NCBI GenBank assembly: GCA_003327425.1
Contig: QOQW01000035.1
Location: 1 to 39,802, forward strand
Length of the DNA: 39,802 nucleotides
Source: Candidatus Ozemibacter sibiricus
Lineage (GTDB): Bacteria > Muiribacteriota > Ozemobacteria > Ozemobacterales > Ozemobacteraceae
Reading direction: 5' to 3'
The notes under the pieces: model-generated
Told to the model about the DNA's origin: nothing
Seen by the model: only the letters and a program-made list of their open reading frames with translations
Database searches by the model: none
Shown: positions 1,202-9,968 of the stretch, piece after piece
How positions within the stretch are numbered: position 1 is the first letter of the stretch
Layout of the letters: every line of letters starts with the position of its first letter
Position numbers and translations under genes: made by a program

Positions 1202-1780
1202 TCAACCGCAGGACCGCGCCCACAGATTGATCCAGGCCACGTCGGGCCGACCCGCCAGGTCGGCCGATCGTCCGCATTCCACCGATCGGAAGCCGGCGAT
1301 GGTCGCCAGGTCGATCAGTTCGTCTTCCTGGTAGAGAGCCCAGAACCGGCCTTCCTCATCGGCGAATTCGCCGGTGCCGGCCTTGACCGACAGGAACAGC
1401 AGCCCCTCCGGCATCAGCACTCGATGCGCCTCGTGGAGCGCGAAGAGGATCCGGGCTTTGGGCAGATGCAGCAGGGAGGCGCACGCCCAGATGCCGGCGA
1501 AACTGGCCGGACGGAAGGGCAGCCAGGCCAGATCGCCCCGGATCAGGGTCTGGCCGCCCCGCTCCCGATGCTGCCGCAGCATTCCCATGCTCCGATCGAG
1601 GGAGACCACGTCGAACCCCCTGGCGGCCAGGGTCAGCGAATCGCGGCCGGCCCCCGACCCCAGATCGAGGACCCGACTGCGGGGCGGCAGCGCCCGACAG
1701 AACGGTTCCCACAGGAAGGCAAGGTCCCGAGCGAGGGAATGGGCCGCATACGCGGCCGCGTGGCGATCGTAGAAATCCAT
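1202..1780 (-). CDS. Class I SAM-dependent methyltransferase
   Basis: A 192-residue protein with a Rossmann-type methyltransferase fold. Motif I is VLDLGSGAGRDS (residues about 37-48), followed by the acidic end of beta-2 in VVSLDRS and the motif LPFRPASFAGIWACASLLHL typical of the Methyltransf_11/25 group. Small-molecule methylation (quinone, lipid or similar) is the usual role of such proteins, but the substrate cannot be read from sequence. It is the last gene of the minus-strand operon, 15 nt after the HAD phosphatase, so it is probably co-transcribed. It has no signal peptide or membrane segment and is cytoplasmic. Confidence 0.85.
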   Translation of the reverse strand: MDFYDRHAAAYAAHSLARDLAFLWEPFCRALPPRSRVLDLGSGAGRDSLTLAARGFDVVSLDRSMGMLRQHRERGGQTLIRGDLAWLPFRPASFAGIWACASLLHLPKARILFALHEAHRVLMPEGLLFLSVKAGTGEFADEEGRFWALYQEDELIDLATIAGFRSVECGRSADLAGRPDVAWINLWARSCG

Positions 1781-1795
1781 GGCGCCTCGGCTCGG

Positions 1796-2488
1796 TCAGG
1801 ACAGCACCAAATGTTCGACCGCCGCGGCATCGGCCAGATCGGGCAGCACCCAGGTGGGGGCTGCGGCGGCCAGCCGGGCGAGCGGAACCGCTCCGGTGGC
1901 CACGGCCAGCACGCGCACCCCCGCTGCCTGGGAGGCCGTGATGTCGTTGATGGTATCGCCCACCATGATCACCTCATCGGCGGGCACCGGCTGGCCGCGC
2001 AAGGCGCCGGCGCGACGCACCGCCCGTCGGATCAGCTCGGCCCGCTCCGGATCTTCGCACCCGAAGGCCCCGACCCGAAAATGCTCGGCGATGCCGAAGC
2101 GGGACAATTTGATCTGCGCCCCTTCTCGGAAATTGCCGGTCACCAGGCCCAGACAGACGTCGGGATGAGCGGACAACCGCTGCAGCAAGTCGGCCACGCC
2201 CGGCTTCAGGTGGCCCCGCCCCTGGATGCCCGCGGCCAGGATCTCGGCATAGCGAGCTTTGAACCGCGCCAGGCGGTCGGGCGACGGGAAGGGCGTGCCA
2301 TCGCGAGCGCTGATCTGACGCAGGGCGTTGAGATCGGTATTCCCGTCCAGGCGGATGCCTTCGAGGCCGCGCGGCGCCTCGAGCACCTCGATGACCGACC
2401 GTTCCAGGGCCTCGTACCCGCTGCGATCGGCCGACAGCAGGGTGCCATCGATATCGAAGAGGACGAGACGCCGCCAGGAGGTGGACAT
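1796..2488 (-). CDS. HAD-superfamily phosphatase, phosphoglycolate phosphatase-like
   Basis: A 230-residue haloacid-dehalogenase hydrolase. Motif I LFDIDGTLL carries the nucleophile and acid/base Asp pair; motif II is the Thr of GLVTGN; a Lys in IKLSRF is a candidate for motif III; motif IV GDTINDI supplies the metal-binding Asp. The helical cap lies between motifs I and II, as in the Gph/PGP subfamily. Likely a cytoplasmic phosphomonoesterase; the true substrate is unknown. It starts about 9 nt after the adenylate cyclase stop. I prefer the ATG at 2488; a GTG at 2494 two codons upstream has GGAAG at a better distance and is a real alternative. No phosphoglycolate-producing pathway gene is nearby. 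Confidence 0.85.
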   Translation of the reverse strand: MSTSWRRLVLFDIDGTLLSADRSGYEALERSVIEVLEAPRGLEGIRLDGNTDLNALRQISARDGTPFPSPDRLARFKARYAEILAAGIQGRGHLKPGVADLLQRLSAHPDVCLGLVTGNFREGAQIKLSRFGIAEHFRVGAFGCEDPERAELIRRAVRRAGALRGQPVPADEVIMVGDTINDITASQAAGVRVLAVATGAVPLARLAAAAPTWVLPDLADAAAVEHLVLS

Positions 2489-2496
2489 GGCCACGG

Positions 2497-4221
2497 TCAG
2501 CTTCCGCCCCCCGGGCGATGGTCCTGGACCGGTTCGGGGGTTGCATCGCTGACCGGTTCGGCGGGGAGCGGCTCGGCCGGCGGCTGGCCGGAGCGGCCGG
2601 CCGCCATCTTGTCCTTCATCCGGATGATCTTGCCCCGCCCGCGCACCCCGGCCTCTTCCCGGTAGCCCAGCACCTCGTAGACCCGCATCGTGCCCTCCAG
2701 GCCACGGATCGCGACGTTCTCGCGCGGCACGGCCCGCACCTCGTTCGAGATCTGCTCGTAGGTCGGCTCATCGATCAGCAGGCTGCTCTTCAGCTCTTTA
2801 TTGAGCGCTTCGAGGCGAGACGCCAGGTTGACGGTGGTGCCCATGACGGTGAACTCGGAGCGCCGTTCGGAGCCGATGTTGCCGGCCAGCACCGGCCCGG
2901 TGGCGATGCCGATGCGGATGCTGAAGCCTTCGCGCCCCTCCTGGGCCCAGCGGGCCTGCAGGTGGCGCACCTCTTCGAGCATGGCGAGCGCCGCCCGCAC
3001 GGCGGACAACCCGGGCAGCGGCAGGTCGGCCAGGACGCCGAAGCGCGCCATGACCGCGTCGCCGATGAATTTGTCGATCTCCCCGTTGTTGTCGAGCACG
3101 ATCTCGGTCATGCGCGAAAGGTACTCGTTGATGGCATGGACCACCTGCTCCGGGGTCAGCCGGGAACTGAAGCGGGTGAACCCTGCGATATCCGAAAACA
3201 GGATGGTCGCCGTCTTGGTGGTGCCGCCCATGCGGATCGAGCCGGGGTTTTTCATGATGGTCTCGACCAGTTCAGGCGAGGTATACCGCGAGAAGATCTC
3301 TTTCAGGCGCTTCTTCTCCTGGAGCTGCTGTTCCGTCAACTGCCTGGTCGAGGTCAGTTCGTCGCGGGTCTGCAGCAGGATGTTGGCATTGGCCAGGGCC
3401 ATGCCCATGAACGAACCGAGCGAGGTGAGGAAGCGCAGGTCGGCCTCGTCGATCTCCTGGCGCTCGCCCTGGAAGGCCTCGAGATGGATCACCCCGAGCG
3501 ACTCGGTCTGGGTATGGATGGGCAGCGCCAGCAGGGTGCCGGGCAAAGGCGGCAGGTCGATGAGCGGGCGGGTTTCCAGGTCATCGGTCGCCGCCAGCCG
3601 ATAGACGGGGCGACGGCGCTGGAAGGCGAACGTCAGGAAGTGCGGCTGGTGCAAGGGAATGATCAGGGTTCCTTTGATGGAGTCGGGAAACCCCTGCCAG
3701 CGGCAGGGATACAGCTCCTGCTTTTCGCGGTCGTGCAGGAAGAGGATGAACTTGCTGACCCCGACTTCCTGGACCAGCATGTCATTGATGTTCTGAAAGA
3801 GCTGTTCCGGATCAAGCGTGGTCGACAGATTCTTCACCTTGGTGAACAGCGTCGACAACTGGTTGCGCACCGCCCTGATCCGTTCGTTGAGGGCTTCCGA
3901 CTTCTTCTTGAACTCCTCGCGTTGCCGCTCGAGGTAGCTCTTTTCGAGCGACTTCTGGAGGTCGGCCCCCAGACGGATCTGCTTGTCCCCCAGGATGTAG
4001 CGCAGGAGATACAGGAGGATCGCCACCGCCACCAGGAGCAGCACCCCCAGCACTTCGGCCACGAACCACGGGAAGGGACTGCTCGGATAGACGAACTCCA
4101 ACCCCTCGGCCCGCGCCGCGGTCGCTCCGATCGCCTCCAGGAAGAGGCCGAGCAGGAGGAGGCCGCCACGGGCAGAACGACCAAGCCGGAAGAATGGTCG
4201 GCAGTCGAATGGCGACGGCAT
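2497..4221 (-). CDS. Membrane-anchored class III adenylate cyclase with GAF domain
   Basis: A 574-residue protein expected to make cAMP from ATP. Order: signal-like hydrophobic segment (about 15-36), short extracytoplasmic stretch, transmembrane helix (about 50-72), coiled coil, GAF domain (about 130-285), a second coiled coil ending in the RYTSPELVETI linker, and a cyclase homology domain (about 330-520). The catalytic set is complete: metal Asp in FSDIAGFT, Lys and second metal Asp in DKFIGDAVMARFG, and Asn/Arg in NLASRLE. The purine-specifying pair is Lys plus Thr (VMGTTVN), as in class IIIb adenylate cyclases. The ATG at 4221 is used because the upstream pilin gene stops 1 nt earlier (TGA-G-ATG), indicating translational coupling; a longer frame to 4443 only overlaps that gene. 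Position inside a minor-pilin operon suggests it responds to the pilus or surface, which is inference. The C-terminal 55 residues are basic, then proline-rich. Confidence 0.92.
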   Translation of the reverse strand: MPSPFDCRPFFRLGRSARGGLLLLGLFLEAIGATAARAEGLEFVYPSSPFPWFVAEVLGVLLLVAVAILLYLLRYILGDKQIRLGADLQKSLEKSYLERQREEFKKKSEALNERIRAVRNQLSTLFTKVKNLSTTLDPEQLFQNINDMLVQEVGVSKFILFLHDREKQELYPCRWQGFPDSIKGTLIIPLHQPHFLTFAFQRRRPVYRLAATDDLETRPLIDLPPLPGTLLALPIHTQTESLGVIHLEAFQGERQEIDEADLRFLTSLGSFMGMALANANILLQTRDELTSTRQLTEQQLQEKKRLKEIFSRYTSPELVETIMKNPGSIRMGGTTKTATILFSDIAGFTRFSSRLTPEQVVHAINEYLSRMTEIVLDNNGEIDKFIGDAVMARFGVLADLPLPGLSAVRAALAMLEEVRHLQARWAQEGREGFSIRIGIATGPVLAGNIGSERRSEFTVMGTTVNLASRLEALNKELKSSLLIDEPTYEQISNEVRAVPRENVAIRGLEGTMRVYEVLGYREEAGVRGRGKIIRMKDKMAAGRSGQPPAEPLPAEPVSDATPEPVQDHRPGGGS

Positions 4222-4222
4222 C

Positions 4223-4924
4223 TCAATAGGTCGGATTGGCGGTCGGCTTCGACTCCACCACCAGCTTGAACTTGGCATTCTGGACGAGGGTGATCTCGGG
4301 ATTGCCGATCGACGGCGGCGGTTTGAGCAGGATCGAGATCTCGAGGATGGAGCCCACGATGCGGCCTGGCCCATCGAGTTCCTCTTCGAAGGTGGCATCG
4401 CGTTGGGTGACCTGGCTGGCCCGGATCGTGATGGTGTCGACATCTTCGAGCACGAGCAGGTTGGCGACCCCCGGCCCCGTCAACCGGATCTCGCGCCCCG
4501 CCCGGGTCAGGAGCCAGGTATCGGGGCCGGTGACCAGGCCCGAGGCGGGATCGAAGTGATCGATCTGCCAGGCCATGAAGATGCCATCGGCCGTCGGGGA
4601 AGGGTTGAACAGCAGGGGGCGGGAGGTCCGGGTGATGGTCCAGTTCCCCGGCGTGGCCAGATCCTGGCGTTCAAGCTTGTCGGTGGCTTCTTCGAGCGGC
4701 TTGCGCAGGCGATTCCAGAACAATTCGGCCTGGCGGGTCCGTTCCTGCTTCCAGGTGGTGAGGCGATAGGAGCCCATGGATTGCCGATAGAGGATCATCG
4801 CGCCGGTGCCCAGAATGGCGAGGACGAACACCGTCACCAGGACCTCGACCAGGGTGAAGCCCGGCGAAGGGCGGCCCCCCGCCCCGGCGCCAGCGATGCC
4901 CCGCGCGGCCGGCCGTTCAGTCAT
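4223..4924 (-). CDS. Minor pilin/pseudopilin, PilW/GspJ-like
   Basis: A 233-residue protein with a type III (prepilin) signal. The leader ends in a Gly followed by FTLVEVLVTVFVLAILGTGA, so cleavage is expected after Gly22, leaving N-methyl-Phe1 and the conserved Glu5. The long globular domain and the position after PilV- and PilX-like genes fit a PilW/GspJ-type minor pilin. It would enter the inner membrane, be processed by a prepilin peptidase (not encoded here) and assemble in a pilus or pseudopilus tip. It overlaps the previous gene by 8 nt and is followed at 1 nt by the adenylate cyclase. Beyond the N-terminus I see no family motif, so the PilW/GspJ label rests on size and order. Confidence 0.82.
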   Translation of the reverse strand: MTERPAARGIAGAGAGGRPSPGFTLVEVLVTVFVLAILGTGAMILYRQSMGSYRLTTWKQERTRQAELFWNRLRKPLEEATDKLERQDLATPGNWTITRTSRPLLFNPSPTADGIFMAWQIDHFDPASGLVTGPDTWLLTRAGREIRLTGPGVANLLVLEDVDTITIRASQVTQRDATFEEELDGPGRIVGSILEISILLKPPPSIGNPEITLVQNAKFKLVVESKPTANPTY

Positions 4925-5426
4925 GGGTGACTTCCACCTCGAGGAGTTCTTCGATGATCTTCTTCTCGGTTTCGCACTGGCCCCAGGCTTCGATCTTGAT
5001 GAAATCGCGCCGATAGCCGGTGTCTTCGCGCGTGATCAATTCGAACCGGTTGATGCCGACCCGGTAGGTGCGACCGTCGTGCAGCTTCAGGGCATCGGTG
5101 AGCCGTCGCGCGATGGGGCCATCTCTTTCGCTGTCCATTTCGGCCAGCCAGATGGAAGTATAAGGCGCCGCCTGGGCGGGCGGCAGTTCCCGGACGGCGG
5201 AGGCCACTTGATAGAACTCGGTGGGCAGCACCCGGAACTTGTACAAGGCCATCTGCATGATACCACGGGCGGCCGCCAGCGCTTTGGCCTGGAGTTCGAG
5301 CTGCCCGAAGGTATCGCGCTGAGCGCGCGACCGGAAGAACAGCACCGAGACGAAGACCAGCAGGCCGATGGTCAGCACCAGGACCATGGCCAGGGCGAAG
5401 CCGCGGCGGGGCAGGCGGCGGTTCAT
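4917..5426 (-). CDS. Minor pilin-like protein, PilX/GspK-like
   Basis: A 169-residue protein with a short basic N-terminus followed by GFALAMVLVLTIGLLVFVSV and a basic stop-transfer segment. The sequence after the Gly resembles the atypical prepilin starts of PilX and GspK, which often lack the Glu5 found in other pilins; here residue 5 is Met. Lack of Glu5 is typical of the tip-most subunit GspK. The globular domain is small (about 135 residues), closer to PilX than to full-length GspK (about 300). ATGA overlap with the upstream PilV-like gene and an 8-nt overlap with the downstream PilW-like gene support tight co-translation. Confidence 0.75.
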   Translation of the reverse strand: MNRRLPRRGFALAMVLVLTIGLLVFVSVLFFRSRAQRDTFGQLELQAKALAAARGIMQMALYKFRVLPTEFYQVASAVRELPPAQAAPYTSIWLAEMDSERDGPIARRLTDALKLHDGRTYRVGINRFELITREDTGYRRDFIKIEAWGQCETEKKIIEELLEVEVTHD

Positions 5427-6058
5427 CGGCGCAGGTCCGCCCGGAAGGTGGCCAGGCGTACGGGCTGGCTTTCGGGATTGCTGACGGTCACCGCGATGCG
5501 CAGGAAGCAGTCGGGACAGCTATAGGTGGCGATCATGAGGCCAGGAGGAGGCACCGGGAGGAAGGGAAGGGGAGGAGGAGGAGGGGGCGGCAACGGGCCG
5601 GCATTGGGATCGGCGGGAGGGAGGGCATGGAAGAAGTGGAACATCAAGGCATTGCTGCTGCCGGCCGGCCCGGAGAATTCCCGGAAGACCTGCACCTGGA
5701 TGTCATAGCGGACGCGGCCGATGTCGACGCTGCCTGACCCCAGCGCCGGACTGCCCTGCAGCGTGATCTTCCCGTTGCTCGATCCGCTGGCGTGGATCAC
5801 TTCGAAGGGCAGATCGACGCTGGTGGAGGCATTATCGAGGAGTTCGAACTGGACACCCATCAACTTGGCCAGCGCCGCTTCGGCGATCTTCAATCCCTGT
5901 TCCTGGAACGCCTGCTTCGAGGTCAGGGCGTAGGACGTGCCGAACACCCGGATCAACGGGAAGACGGCCGCCGCCAGGATGACCAGGGCCACCAGGACTT
6001 CGGGCAGGGTGAGCCCGTCTCGCCTGCGCATGGGTGATGGACGGCCGCCAGCGATCAT
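5423..6058 (-). CDS. Minor pilin, PilV/GspI-like, with polyproline tract
   Basis: A 211-residue type IV pilin-like protein. The prepilin signal is MRRRDG followed by LTLPEVLVALVILAAAVFPL, with Glu5 conserved (cleavage after the Gly). The Leu-Thr-Leu start and VLVALVILA are typical of PilV/GspI. Residues about 155-172 form a proline run (LPPPPPPPLPFLPVPPP), unusual for a pilin head. The start at 6058 overlaps the stop of the preceding gene as ATGA, which argues for coupling; an internal ATG at 6031 would give a shorter, more standard leader. Neither has a good Shine-Dalgarno sequence. It is the first of three consecutive pilin-like genes. Confidence 0.82.
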   Translation of the reverse strand: MIAGGRPSPMRRRDGLTLPEVLVALVILAAAVFPLIRVFGTSYALTSKQAFQEQGLKIAEAALAKLMGVQFELLDNASTSVDLPFEVIHASGSSNGKITLQGSPALGSGSVDIGRVRYDIQVQVFREFSGPAGSSNALMFHFFHALPPADPNAGPLPPPPPPPLPFLPVPPPGLMIATYSCPDCFLRIAVTVSNPESQPVRLATFRADLRR

Positions 6059-8331
6059 TCGAGCTTGCGGTGCTTCTGCTCGAGGACCCGGATCCGCGTC
6101 TTCTCGTCGGTCACCTTGAACAGCACGGTCAGGCTCCGTTCGTTGCCGCGATAATCGAACATCGTGGCCGAGATCGAGGGGTGCTGGGAAGGATTGCCCG
6201 GACCAGGCACGGTGGGTTCGCCGACCGTCGGCTCGCGAAACACCACCCGGATCGGCTCGGACTTGTACTGGTCTTTGCGCCAGGATCGCCTGATCTGCAG
6301 TGGCGGCACCTGGTTGGGCACATCGATGATGAACTCGCCGCGTTCGATCCCGCTGTAGGGGGGATCGATGACTTTGCCCGACAAGGGCCAGTTGAGGAAA
6401 TGCACGTTGTCTTCCGCCCAGATCGTGACCTCATACTCCACGTCTTCGATCAGCGGAATCGTCTGCACCAGCACGGCCTTGTACCCCCACCCGTTCCGTT
6501 CACCGAAGGTGGCGGCATCGGCCACGATGGGATTGCCCTGCAGGTCGGTGTCGGACCTGGCGAAATTCTCGAGCCGGAAATGCTGGCGAATGAAACTTTC
6601 GCTCCGGGCGGGGCCGGGCAGGAATTTGCTGGCCCAGGTCGCTTCGACGCTCGAGAGCAGGGGGCGGGCCCCCCCATCCAATTGGAGAGCGATGATGTCG
6701 TAATCGCGAACGTAGGCCGGTGTCATGTCTTCGATTCTGATGGGGGCTTTCTCGATGAATTGCGAGTATTCCGCATCGTTCAGCGTCTGGACGGACGCCA
6801 CCCCGACCGGCGGGAAAAACAGCACATCATTGGGGTCGCGCATCGATTGCACCCGGATGATGATATTGGGTCGATCATTGTCATCGACCCAGATGGTCCC
6901 TTCGCCTTCCTCGATCCGCTGACGGATGTCGAGGTCTTCGAACCTGACCTGATCAGGCTCTTTGGTCACCATGTAGGGGAACGGCCTGGCCTGCCCCGGG
7001 TCGGTCAGAAGATCTTCGGCGAGCGGGCCCCGCAAGCCATAACAGTCGGTCGGCACATCTTCCTGAATCATCGGTTCACCGGGGTTGAGGACTTTGTTTT
7101 CGTCCCACGCAAAGACGGTGTATTTCATTTCTCCCAGGCAGTCATTGGGAAGGAAGACATGCGAGGCCAGGGATTCGCCAGGCAACGTCACTCCGATGCT
7201 GCCTATGAATTTCCAGTCTTCCGGTGGGGGGCTCCAGGGGCCAGGCCCGGGGGGGCCGACCATGCGCCCGATGCCGAAGCACGAATAGATCCGCTTGCCG
7301 GAATTGTCTTTGGCGGCCAGGCCGGCGAGTGCATAGAAATCGCCCGTGGTCGAGGTGCGCGGCGGACACACCCCGGTCGTCGGATCGGGCGGCCCCCCCA
7401 GCAACGGAAAAGTGGGCGCCGGCGGATGGATTTCATTCCCGAATTCGAAAATGCGGGGAGGGGTCCGGTCTTTATAGCGAATGACGTAGCAGACGTCGCT
7501 GGTCACTGGAGATTTCCGAGGAATATCGAACGCCTGTTCCTGAAAGGAGGCATCGATGTCGCGTCCATCGTAGCACCCATGCCCGGCGACATCAGCAGCA
7601 TTGAAGCAGTGTGTCGCGACATCGGGCGGACAACATCCGCTCGGGCAGGGGCGTTTTTCGCACGAGCAGGTCGTATGAAATTTGTTGGTCGGTAGATGCG
7701 GCTTATACACGATCTGCTTGGCCGAGAACTGCAACCCGATCTTGAAGACGACATCGCGAGGGGCGACGGTCGGATTTCGCGGGTAGGGCAGCCAGTATTC
7801 TGCCGAGTTGGCGGGTTTGCCGGGTGGGAGCAATTCGGCCAGCAGCAGTTTGAGAATGTTGCCATCCTGGTCGACAATCTCGGCATTCTTGGCGTACCAC
7901 CGCTTGACGTCATGGGCATCGAGAATGTCATTGCCGCCCAGAATGATCTTGGGCACGTCGAACAAGTCTTTCATCTCATTGGCCCGATCGACCGAGACAT
8001 GCTTGCCAGGATTGCCGTCCATGTACATGTCCCTGAAGGCGTTCCAAGGAAGGAAGATATCCTTCCACCCGAGGGGATTGCGAAATTCGAGGTGGATGTT
8101 GGTGATGGTGGCGACATCCTCGTAGGTATCGACGACCCCGTCGGCAGGGAGAGGTGGGGTATCGAAATCAGAGGTCAACAAGATCAGACTCGAAGCGATC
8201 GCCTGCGCGGGCAGGTCACGAACCACCGACGCGACCGGCGGATTCGCCTGCCCCGGATGCGTTCCGCCCATCAGGATCAGGAGGCACAGGAGAAGCCCGA
8301 TTGGAGCAGAGGCGCTTCTGACATTTATCAT
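6055..8331 (-). CDS. Large secreted protein of unknown function in minor-pilin operon
   Basis: A 758-residue exported protein that I do not recognise by sequence. A signal peptide (GLLLCLLILMGG, cleavage near QANP) is clear. I chose the ATG at 8331 over 8340 because the GAGGGGG element (8341-8347) is 9 nt from the former and touches the latter. Residues about 221-255 are Cys-rich (CSCEKRPCPSGCC then two further Cys) and may bind metal or form disulfides. Acidic loops such as VDQDGN and WVDDNDRP look like possible calcium sites. It lies directly upstream of PilV-, PilX- and PilW-like genes (ATGA overlap), the place where classical minor-pilin operons carry PilY1, the pilus tip adhesin. A PilY1-like tip role is inference from position; no beta-propeller motif is visible. 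Confidence 0.8.
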   Translation of the reverse strand: MINVRSASAPIGLLLCLLILMGGTHPGQANPPVASVVRDLPAQAIASSLILLTSDFDTPPLPADGVVDTYEDVATITNIHLEFRNPLGWKDIFLPWNAFRDMYMDGNPGKHVSVDRANEMKDLFDVPKIILGGNDILDAHDVKRWYAKNAEIVDQDGNILKLLLAELLPPGKPANSAEYWLPYPRNPTVAPRDVVFKIGLQFSAKQIVYKPHLPTNKFHTTCSCEKRPCPSGCCPPDVATHCFNAADVAGHGCYDGRDIDASFQEQAFDIPRKSPVTSDVCYVIRYKDRTPPRIFEFGNEIHPPAPTFPLLGGPPDPTTGVCPPRTSTTGDFYALAGLAAKDNSGKRIYSCFGIGRMVGPPGPGPWSPPPEDWKFIGSIGVTLPGESLASHVFLPNDCLGEMKYTVFAWDENKVLNPGEPMIQEDVPTDCYGLRGPLAEDLLTDPGQARPFPYMVTKEPDQVRFEDLDIRQRIEEGEGTIWVDDNDRPNIIIRVQSMRDPNDVLFFPPVGVASVQTLNDAEYSQFIEKAPIRIEDMTPAYVRDYDIIALQLDGGARPLLSSVEATWASKFLPGPARSESFIRQHFRLENFARSDTDLQGNPIVADAATFGERNGWGYKAVLVQTIPLIEDVEYEVTIWAEDNVHFLNWPLSGKVIDPPYSGIERGEFIIDVPNQVPPLQIRRSWRKDQYKSEPIRVVFREPTVGEPTVPGPGNPSQHPSISATMFDYRGNERSLTVLFKVTDEKTRIRVLEQKHRKLE

Positions 8332-8357
8332 CTTGGTCATCCCCCTCGCAGAAATTC

Positions 8358-9968
8358 TCACGCCTGAATGATCTTCAGAGCCAACGTCCGCAGCTCGCGG
8401 TCGTTGGTCTGGCCTTTGGGCACGAACCGGGCGATCACCGCGGCCTCCAGGTCGCGCAGGAAACGAGGCAGCCAGGTCGGCGGCGTCGGTTGCAGGCCCG
8501 TCAGGAAGGCCTGTTCGAAATCGTGCTCGCCCAGACTCTGTTGCAGGTGCTGCCGCGCCACTCCCAGGAAGAAATAGGCCCGAGCCGCCAGACCCGGCGA
8601 TGACAGGGCCGCCTGCAGATGTCGGAGAGCCTCTTCCGACTTGCCGTTGCTGATCAGCACCAGCCCCGTCACATAGCAGAACCAGGGCACGGTGGCCCGA
8701 CGGACCAGAGCCAGCAAGCGGCCTTCCTCCGTCGTGATCTCGCCGCCCAGGCCGCGCCAGAGCAAGCGCACCATGTCGGCCAGCATCTTGAACGAAAAGC
8801 GGTCGATCAGGGCGTCGAACATGCGCCAGGCCGCCACGAACGCAGCTAGGCCGCCCACCCCGACCAGGGCCATGGCCAAGAACAGCCACGGATGGCCATT
8901 CACATAGCACCGCCAGAAGAAGCCCCACGATCGGCCCGCCTGCGCCGCGACCGCAGCGGCCTTCAGATATTCACCCTTTCCCGCCAGAGCTTCACTCACA
9001 TTCGCCAGCACCTGCTGCCGGGAGAACCTTTTCCTCTCGTCGAACAGGAAGCGAGTGGCCAAGGTTGAAGCTGCCGTAGAGGAGGCGGTCGCCCGAGAAC
9101 CAGCCTCGGACTGACGGAGCTGCCAGCGTTCGACCTGCGGCCATTTTTTGAGGAGGGTCAGGAAATCGGCGATGGCCAAATCGAAACGTCGAGCCCCCAA
9201 ATAGGCAAGCCCCCGGCGGTAGACCCAACTCCAGTGTTCGGGATTCCGGCGCAGAAGAGCGGTGTGCCAATCGATGGCACGTTCATACTCCCCGGCCGAT
9301 AGACAAGTTTCAGCATTGAGCAACATATCCCTCAAGTAGCGATCGGTCGCGATCTGCTCGCGCAGCTCCATTGCCTGCTTGAATTGCGGGTCACGCTCGA
9401 GGGCCCGGGTGATGAAATCCATAGCTTGCTCAAGATTGTCGCTGTCGTAGGCAGCTTTGGCCCGATTGAACAGGTCGCGCGCCGAGAGCGCCGCGAGATC
9501 GAAGGAACGACCGGTATCCGGCGCGATGACGATCCCTTGCTCCCGGTATTTCTGGACGGTCTTGGCCACGTTCTCCATGGCTTGCAGACCGGCTTTGGCT
9601 TCGGGATGATCGGGGATGAGCTTGAGCACATAGCGATACTCCTGCATGGCGCGAGGAGGATCGGTGCGGGAGTAGAATTCGGCCGCCTTCAGGTGGTCGG
9701 CGGCCTCCTGGTTGATGGTTTCCATCAAGGTCTTTTCGTAGTCGAGCAGTTCCGGGTCTTCGGGGTCGGTCGTTTTCGCCTGCCGGAAGTAGTTCATGGC
9801 CGACAGCGCGTTCTTGTTCTTGAGGGCGGTCCTGGATTTTTCGAGGAAGGCCGCCCCCTGCGGCGACAGGGCCTGCACCAGGCTGCTTCCTCCCGCCGCG
9901 AGGACGAAGAAGAAGGCGAGAAGGCCCGCGAGCATGCTTCGGAGCAACGAATGGGTACCCTTGGCCAT
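8358..9968 (-). CDS. Membrane TPR-repeat protein heading the pilin operon
   Basis: A 536-residue protein. An N-terminal signal or anchor (SMLAGLLAFFFVLAAGGSS) is followed by TPR-like helical repeats to about residue 250 (for example AMNYFRQAKTTDPEDPELLD and AMQEYRYVLKLIPDHPEAKA), a linker, a transmembrane helix near 353-378 (WLFLAMALVGVGGLAAFVAAW) and a C-terminal part with one more TPR-like unit (ALRHLQAALSSPGLAARAYF). TPRs usually scaffold protein complexes; assembly of the pilus proteins downstream is a reasonable guess. The ATG at 9968 is used because it places the signal at the N-terminus; the longer frame to 10148 would run across the aldolase promoter. It is the first gene of the minus operon, 26 nt before the secreted protein. 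A TACCAT hexamer lies 6 nt before the ATG, without a convincing -35. Confidence 0.82.
   Translation of the reverse strand: MAKGTHSLLRSMLAGLLAFFFVLAAGGSSLVQALSPQGAAFLEKSRTALKNKNALSAMNYFRQAKTTDPEDPELLDYEKTLMETINQEAADHLKAAEFYSRTDPPRAMQEYRYVLKLIPDHPEAKAGLQAMENVAKTVQKYREQGIVIAPDTGRSFDLAALSARDLFNRAKAAYDSDNLEQAMDFITRALERDPQFKQAMELREQIATDRYLRDMLLNAETCLSAGEYERAIDWHTALLRRNPEHWSWVYRRGLAYLGARRFDLAIADFLTLLKKWPQVERWQLRQSEAGSRATASSTAASTLATRFLFDERKRFSRQQVLANVSEALAGKGEYLKAAAVAAQAGRSWGFFWRCYVNGHPWLFLAMALVGVGGLAAFVAAWRMFDALIDRFSFKMLADMVRLLWRGLGGEITTEEGRLLALVRRATVPWFCYVTGLVLISNGKSEEALRHLQAALSSPGLAARAYFFLGVARQHLQQSLGEHDFEQAFLTGLQPTPPTWLPRFLRDLEAAVIARFVPKGQTNDRELRTLALKIIQA

Follow-up and report, generated by a model that had tools for sequence, protein, structure and literature searches.

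The question raised by this locus is whether an adenylate cyclase gene that directly follows a run of minor pilin genes belongs functionally to the pilus, or whether the two simply lie side by side. The window, meaning the whole 39,802-nt stretch of DNA that was analysed, corresponds to contig C42 in a MAG of 5.7 Mb, the closest named relatives of which are Ozemobacteraceae (Candidatus Riflebacteria). A block of eight tightly packed ORFs occupies the minus strand at positions 1202-9968 (Table 1), flanked by a polysaccharide deacetylase gene on the plus strand and by a divergently oriented gene for fructose-bisphosphate aldolase. The original prediction of eight minus-strand genes with gaps under 30 nt or overlaps holds for the entire block: all of the ORFs are present, and the largest gap (17 nt) falls between the TPR and secreted-protein genes. 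The secreted-protein and PilV genes overlap by 4 nt, as do the PilV and PilX genes, while the PilX and PilW genes overlap by 8 nt. The cyclase ATG lies 1 nt past the PilW stop, confirming the junction that had been described, and is followed by spacings of 2 nt (cyclase to HAD) and 15 nt (HAD to methyltransferase). Judged by this spacing, the eight genes are probably read as a single transcript.

Table 1. Genes of the minor pilin-cyclase block, listed in the order of predicted transcription (window coordinates).
Feature	Position	Strand	Basis
TPR-repeat membrane protein, first cassette gene	8358..9968	-	Pfam TPR families; orthologue at the equivalent place in 11 relatives
Large secreted protein (LSP), predicted beta-rich	6055..8340	-	No Pfam or NCBIfam match; model pLDDT 76
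PilV/GspI-like minor pilin	5423..6058	-	N_methyl above cut-off; PilV and GspI models below cut-off
PilX/GspK-position pilin-like protein, without Glu5	4917..5426	-	Position and sequence; zero family matches
PilW/GspJ-like minor pilin, the cyclase's constant partner	4223..4924	-	N_methyl above, GspJ below cut-off; model pLDDT 89
Predicted class III adenylate cyclase	2497..4221	-	GAF and Guanylate_cyc (Pfam); six invariant catalytic residues
HAD-family phosphatase, lineage-specific addition	1796..2494	-	Pfam; cyclase neighbour in own genus and G004 only
SAM methyltransferase, lineage-specific addition	1202..1780	-	Pfam; cyclase neighbour in own genus and G004 only

The comparison set consisted of 40 genomes from the phylum, among which 19 Ozemobacteraceae (source genome included) possess an orthologue of the cyclase. 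Failure of the pilin-cyclase adjacency to persist in relatives had been set beforehand as the outcome that would count against the original prediction; what was found is PilW directly upstream of the cyclase, on the same strand, in 19/19 of these genomes, even as PilW identity outside its own genus drops to 31-40%. The complete order of TPR protein, secreted protein, PilV, PilX, PilW, and cyclase occurs in 11 relatives (the TPR gene of G002 is cut by the contig start), and the order in G016, G021, G037, and G038 matches up to the contig limits (with the PilV of G021 as a tentative member). Outer neighbours are retained far less often, with the aldolase present in 5/10 informative relatives and the deacetylase in 10/17. 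The HAD phosphatase and methyltransferase, which the original prediction had counted as part of the unit, adjoin the cyclase solely in its own genus and in one other genome (G004), and this distribution led to their rejection as parts of any device.

The PilW-cyclase pair also stays joined away from the other cassette genes. A rumen genus (g11) has a divided cassette, with the pair at another site, behind other pilins in two loci (L023 and L024) and alone in a third (L025). Of the remaining genes, G015 (L119) keeps those for TPR protein, secreted protein, PilV, and PilX as one group, and G018 (L118) keeps those for secreted protein, PilV, and PilX. Flagellin-like and STAS-like ORFs (by eye) were observed upstream of the relocated pilin-cyclase cluster in this genus (L023:4593-5788, L024:5358-6584). 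Absences coincide as well. The genomes G011, G006, G010, and G013 (96%, 93%, 67%, and 70% complete, respectively) have no cyclase orthologue, their best matches to the PilW profile are distant pilins only, and for the secreted protein they give either no match or one no stronger than noise. In G019 (78% complete), the secreted protein is present and the PilW orthologue and cyclase are both missing. This co-absence may represent either loss or ancestral absence. Elsewhere in the source genome (L108:5805-12320, G000:C45), a 1377-aa ORF that resembles the window's secreted protein over a short stretch is followed by pilin-like ORFs and is possibly part of a paralogous tip cluster that has no cyclase.

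It should be noted that adjacency in a single genome carries no weight for this question. The source genome has 52 class III cyclase-domain, 111 prepilin, and 29 T2SSE ATPase matches, and 1 cyclase domain was observed within 3 kb of a pilin (<=3 kb) versus 3.8 expected. As proximity is not enriched, the lone pilin-cyclase adjacency was rejected as evidence; it is the conservation, and not the adjacency itself, that exceeds chance. Many of the 52 cyclase matches are located in ORFs of 1000-2400 aa. A control GAF cyclase (G000:C7:249848 and orthologues) retained its immediate upstream neighbour, a large non-pilin protein, in 15/17 other loci, with one of the two misses at a contig end. Whatever their operons encode, cyclases in the family tend not to leave them. 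Because the control keeps a non-pilin neighbour almost equally well, the PilW-cyclase linkage points to a functional unit and not to a mechanism, and its conservation shows selection for the unit, not proof of a contact sensor. PilW is the closest partner of the cyclase in this unit, and the cyclase and the pilus probably share one pathway. The reading that we favour, which falls a little short of probable, is that the minor pilin cassette carries a dedicated membrane adenylate cyclase whose output would be coupled to the state of the pilus.

The cyclase itself matches the GAF and Guanylate_cyc families, the latter (PF00211) above the cut-off with an E-value of 1.1e-28. The residues D344, K384, D388, T458, N465, and R469 are invariant in an alignment of 17 cyclase orthologues, bearing out the earlier description of a complete enzyme. 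We take these six to be the two metal-binding aspartates (D344 and D388), the purine-site pair (K384/T458), and the transition-state pair (N465/R469), and Lys384 and Thr458 are in keeping with IIIb-type ATP specificity. Adenylate cyclases are the top solved relatives, 6fht (a phytochrome-adenylate cyclase fusion) ranking first and CyaB of P. aeruginosa (3r5g) second, and the predicted product is cAMP. CyaB has a multi-pass MASE2 membrane domain; the domain search of the cyclase returned GAF and Guanylate_cyc only, and no MASE2-type N-terminal membrane domain. The N-terminus, judged by eye, consists of a signal peptide, ~14 residues in the periplasm, and a single TM helix, and the protein continues with a coiled coil, the GAF domain, and the catalytic domain. 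With just this short tail ahead of the helix in the mature protein, the cyclase appears to have no sensory ectodomain of its own. Assignment of the GAF as a cyclic-nucleotide-binding domain was considered and rejected, as an NKxFDE-type motif was not seen by eye.

This architecture lends itself to another account, a real possibility, in which co-expression is the only tie: the cyclase would be made alongside the pilus, its GAF domain would sense a cytosolic ligand, and the cAMP would tune proteins of the pilus or of surface life with no control by pilins. Both the presence of a GAF domain and the near lack of a periplasmic part (by eye) agree with it, and other cyclases of the family are likewise held in fixed operons. 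By itself, however, it leaves unexplained why PilW alone, among the five cassette genes, accompanies the cyclase in the rumen genus.

A further question is what kind of filament the cassette forms. Of the predicted trio of PilV-, PilX-, and PilW-like pilins, PilV and PilW score above the Pfam cut-off for the prepilin motif (PF07963, N_methyl). The protein in the PilX position does not, and a family profile search across 14 of its orthologues gave zero pilin-family matches; its identification by family profile was rejected, and the name reflects where its gene lies and an N-terminus that is hydrophobic and lacks Glu5. NCBIfam matches to PilV and GspI (on the PilV-like protein) and to GspJ (on the PilW-like protein) are all below the cut-off. 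The predicted model of PilW (pLDDT 89) resembles TTHA1219, a type IV-like pilin from Thermus, and the EpsI:EpsJ complex, with high probability and weak E-values. Conservation within PilW is highest in the alpha1-C segment (mean pairwise identity of 56% vs 32% in the head). Searches of Pfam and NCBIfam with the secreted protein returned no match, and its model is of moderate quality (pLDDT 76), with diffuse Ig/FnIII-like matches of low TM-score. The protein may be an adhesin; its assignment as PilY1 was rejected, given the lack of a Pfam match and structural matches that are only diffuse. Profile searches against solved structures with the secreted protein and the PilX-position protein produced weak, unrelated-looking matches only.

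Cyclases are paired with pilus genes at other sites in the phylum. A second conserved operon in the source genome has the order pilT-pilT-cyclase (G000:C7:418316-421981; L167:7317-10981) and occurs in ten genomes of the family, with orthologues in 9/17 of the other genomes searched. In every copy for which the 5' side is present, two pilT genes, for PilT-like ATPases, lie directly upstream; the cyclase has a C-terminal zinc ribbon. Further, a close relative of the window's cyclase adjoins pilins in three other families, in the orders pilB-pilC-pilin-pilin-pilin-cyclase (f2), three pilins-cyclase with fliO and further flagellar export genes directly behind (f4), and cyclase-pilin-pilin (f6). 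In four families (f3, f5, f7, and f8), no pilin lies beside the closest cyclase. The f4 run (L030:6030-11843, G024:C6), whose cyclase is a GAF cyclase, is next to an FHA-GAF-HD protein, and the pilin-cyclase run of f2 is followed by a 296-aa protein that matches F5/8 type C weakly (G022:C68, L109:35-925). In the cyclase tree, the clade of the window has support of 100/100, and the f2, f4, and f6 cyclases do not join it, sitting on long branches with no resolved placement. A single ancestral pilin-cyclase linkage for the whole phylum is not supported by this tree.

These pairings bear on the improbable alternative that the filament is a secretion pseudopilus of the type II secretion kind, not a retractable pilus, and that the cyclase would report secretion instead of surface contact. 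PilW and PilV score on the GspJ and GspI models as they do on the pilus models, the EpsI:EpsJ pseudopilin complex is among the best structural matches, and the secreted protein has no PilY1 match. Against this, the f2 cyclase comes after pilB, pilC, and pilin genes, and the source genome encodes several PilT-like ATPases and the pilT-pilT-cyclase operon, though not at the window locus. A neutral pairing, in which an old operon simply carries the two genes along without a functional tie, is very improbable, for the outer flanks have been broken repeatedly and the PilW-cyclase pair never, and the pair stays joined apart from the cassette with coinciding absences, even though the high numbers of pilins and cyclases make one adjacency likely and a different cyclase has kept its neighbours well too.

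Returning to the reading in which cyclase output follows the pilus, the cassette (TPR protein, beta-rich secreted protein, and PilV-, PilX-, and PilW-like pilins) would form the tip set of a type IV filament, and the single TM helix with its short periplasmic tail would anchor the cyclase in the inner membrane, where cAMP would be made according to pilus state. The simplest route would have PilW touch the cyclase while PilW resides in the inner membrane, either before assembly or after retraction, with the GAF domain supplying a cytosolic input. The cAMP would then work through cyclic-nucleotide-binding proteins. The source genome contains 14 cNMP-binding matches, and the four proteins inspected (L163, L164, L165, and L166) carry GGDEF, MCP-signalling, or ParA-like domains; since the binding domains are joined to such partners, cAMP may act on signalling proteins and not on transcription alone. 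In favour of this coupling are the 19/19 adjacency, the relocation of the pair in g11, the co-absence, the invariant catalytic residues, the pilT-pilT-cyclase operon, the pilin-cyclase neighbours in three families, and the cNMP-binding fusions. Weighing against it are the lack of a sensory ectodomain, the behaviour of the control cyclase, the unenriched proximity, and the failure of the pilin-linked cyclases from other families to join the lineage in the tree. Gating of the cyclase by a pilin is plausible but unproven, PilW-cyclase contact and contact sensing are speculative, and the contact-to-cAMP device of the original prediction is best treated as a hypothesis. The more specific proposal that a minor pilin gates the cyclase directly, with no chemosensory relay, and that the Riflebacteria pair several cyclases (PilW at the tip, pilT-pilT at the motor) to read pilus state is rather unlikely.

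The open-access literature searched contained no description of a cyclase and minor pilin as a conserved pair, and the titles and abstracts found there on Riflebacteria or Ozemobacter were on neither cyclases nor pili. A pair that is kept, moved, and absent together suggests, at the level of gene content, that Ozemobacteraceae cells wire the pilus to a cAMP signal. This provides a first lead on what part of the large stock of cyclases and pilins in the uncultured phylum Riflebacteria may do, and the PilW-cyclase pair, together even outside the cassette, offers a minimal system for asking if a pilin controls a cyclase directly.

Links between pili and cAMP are already known from Pseudomonas and Synechocystis. 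The locus resembles the fimU-pilVWXY1Y2E operon of P. aeruginosa in its run of minor pilins and large secreted protein; we know of no cyclase in that operon, and unlike it, the secreted protein of the window is not PilY1 (family search). In P. aeruginosa surface sensing through Pil-Chp/PilJ-CyaB-Vfr, a chemosensory relay (PilJ, PilG) activates CyaB (PMC12632253, PMC12607626), and the full path from pilus engagement to CyaB has been described as still to be defined (PMC12607626). Both systems tie a class III membrane adenylate cyclase to type IV pili, but the Ozemobacteraceae cyclase has a GAF domain and one TM helix and its gene abuts a minor pilin gene, with none of PilJ, ChpA, or PilG encoded at the window locus. 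In Synechocystis, minor pilin genes and pilus-based motility are tied to cAMP through the blue-light-responsive cyclase Cya1 and the cAMP-receptor proteins Sycrp1 and Sycrp2, which regulate the pilA9-slr2019 minor pilin operon (PMC7690835); unlike that arrangement, the cyclase of the window is encoded with the pilins. The PilY1-PilO-SadC model of P. aeruginosa, in which a pilus part is proposed to control an inner-membrane diguanylate cyclase (PMC9210963), shares the idea of an inner-membrane nucleotide cyclase under the control of a pilus component, and differs in producing c-di-GMP instead of cAMP and in having PilO, and not a minor pilin, as the point of contact.
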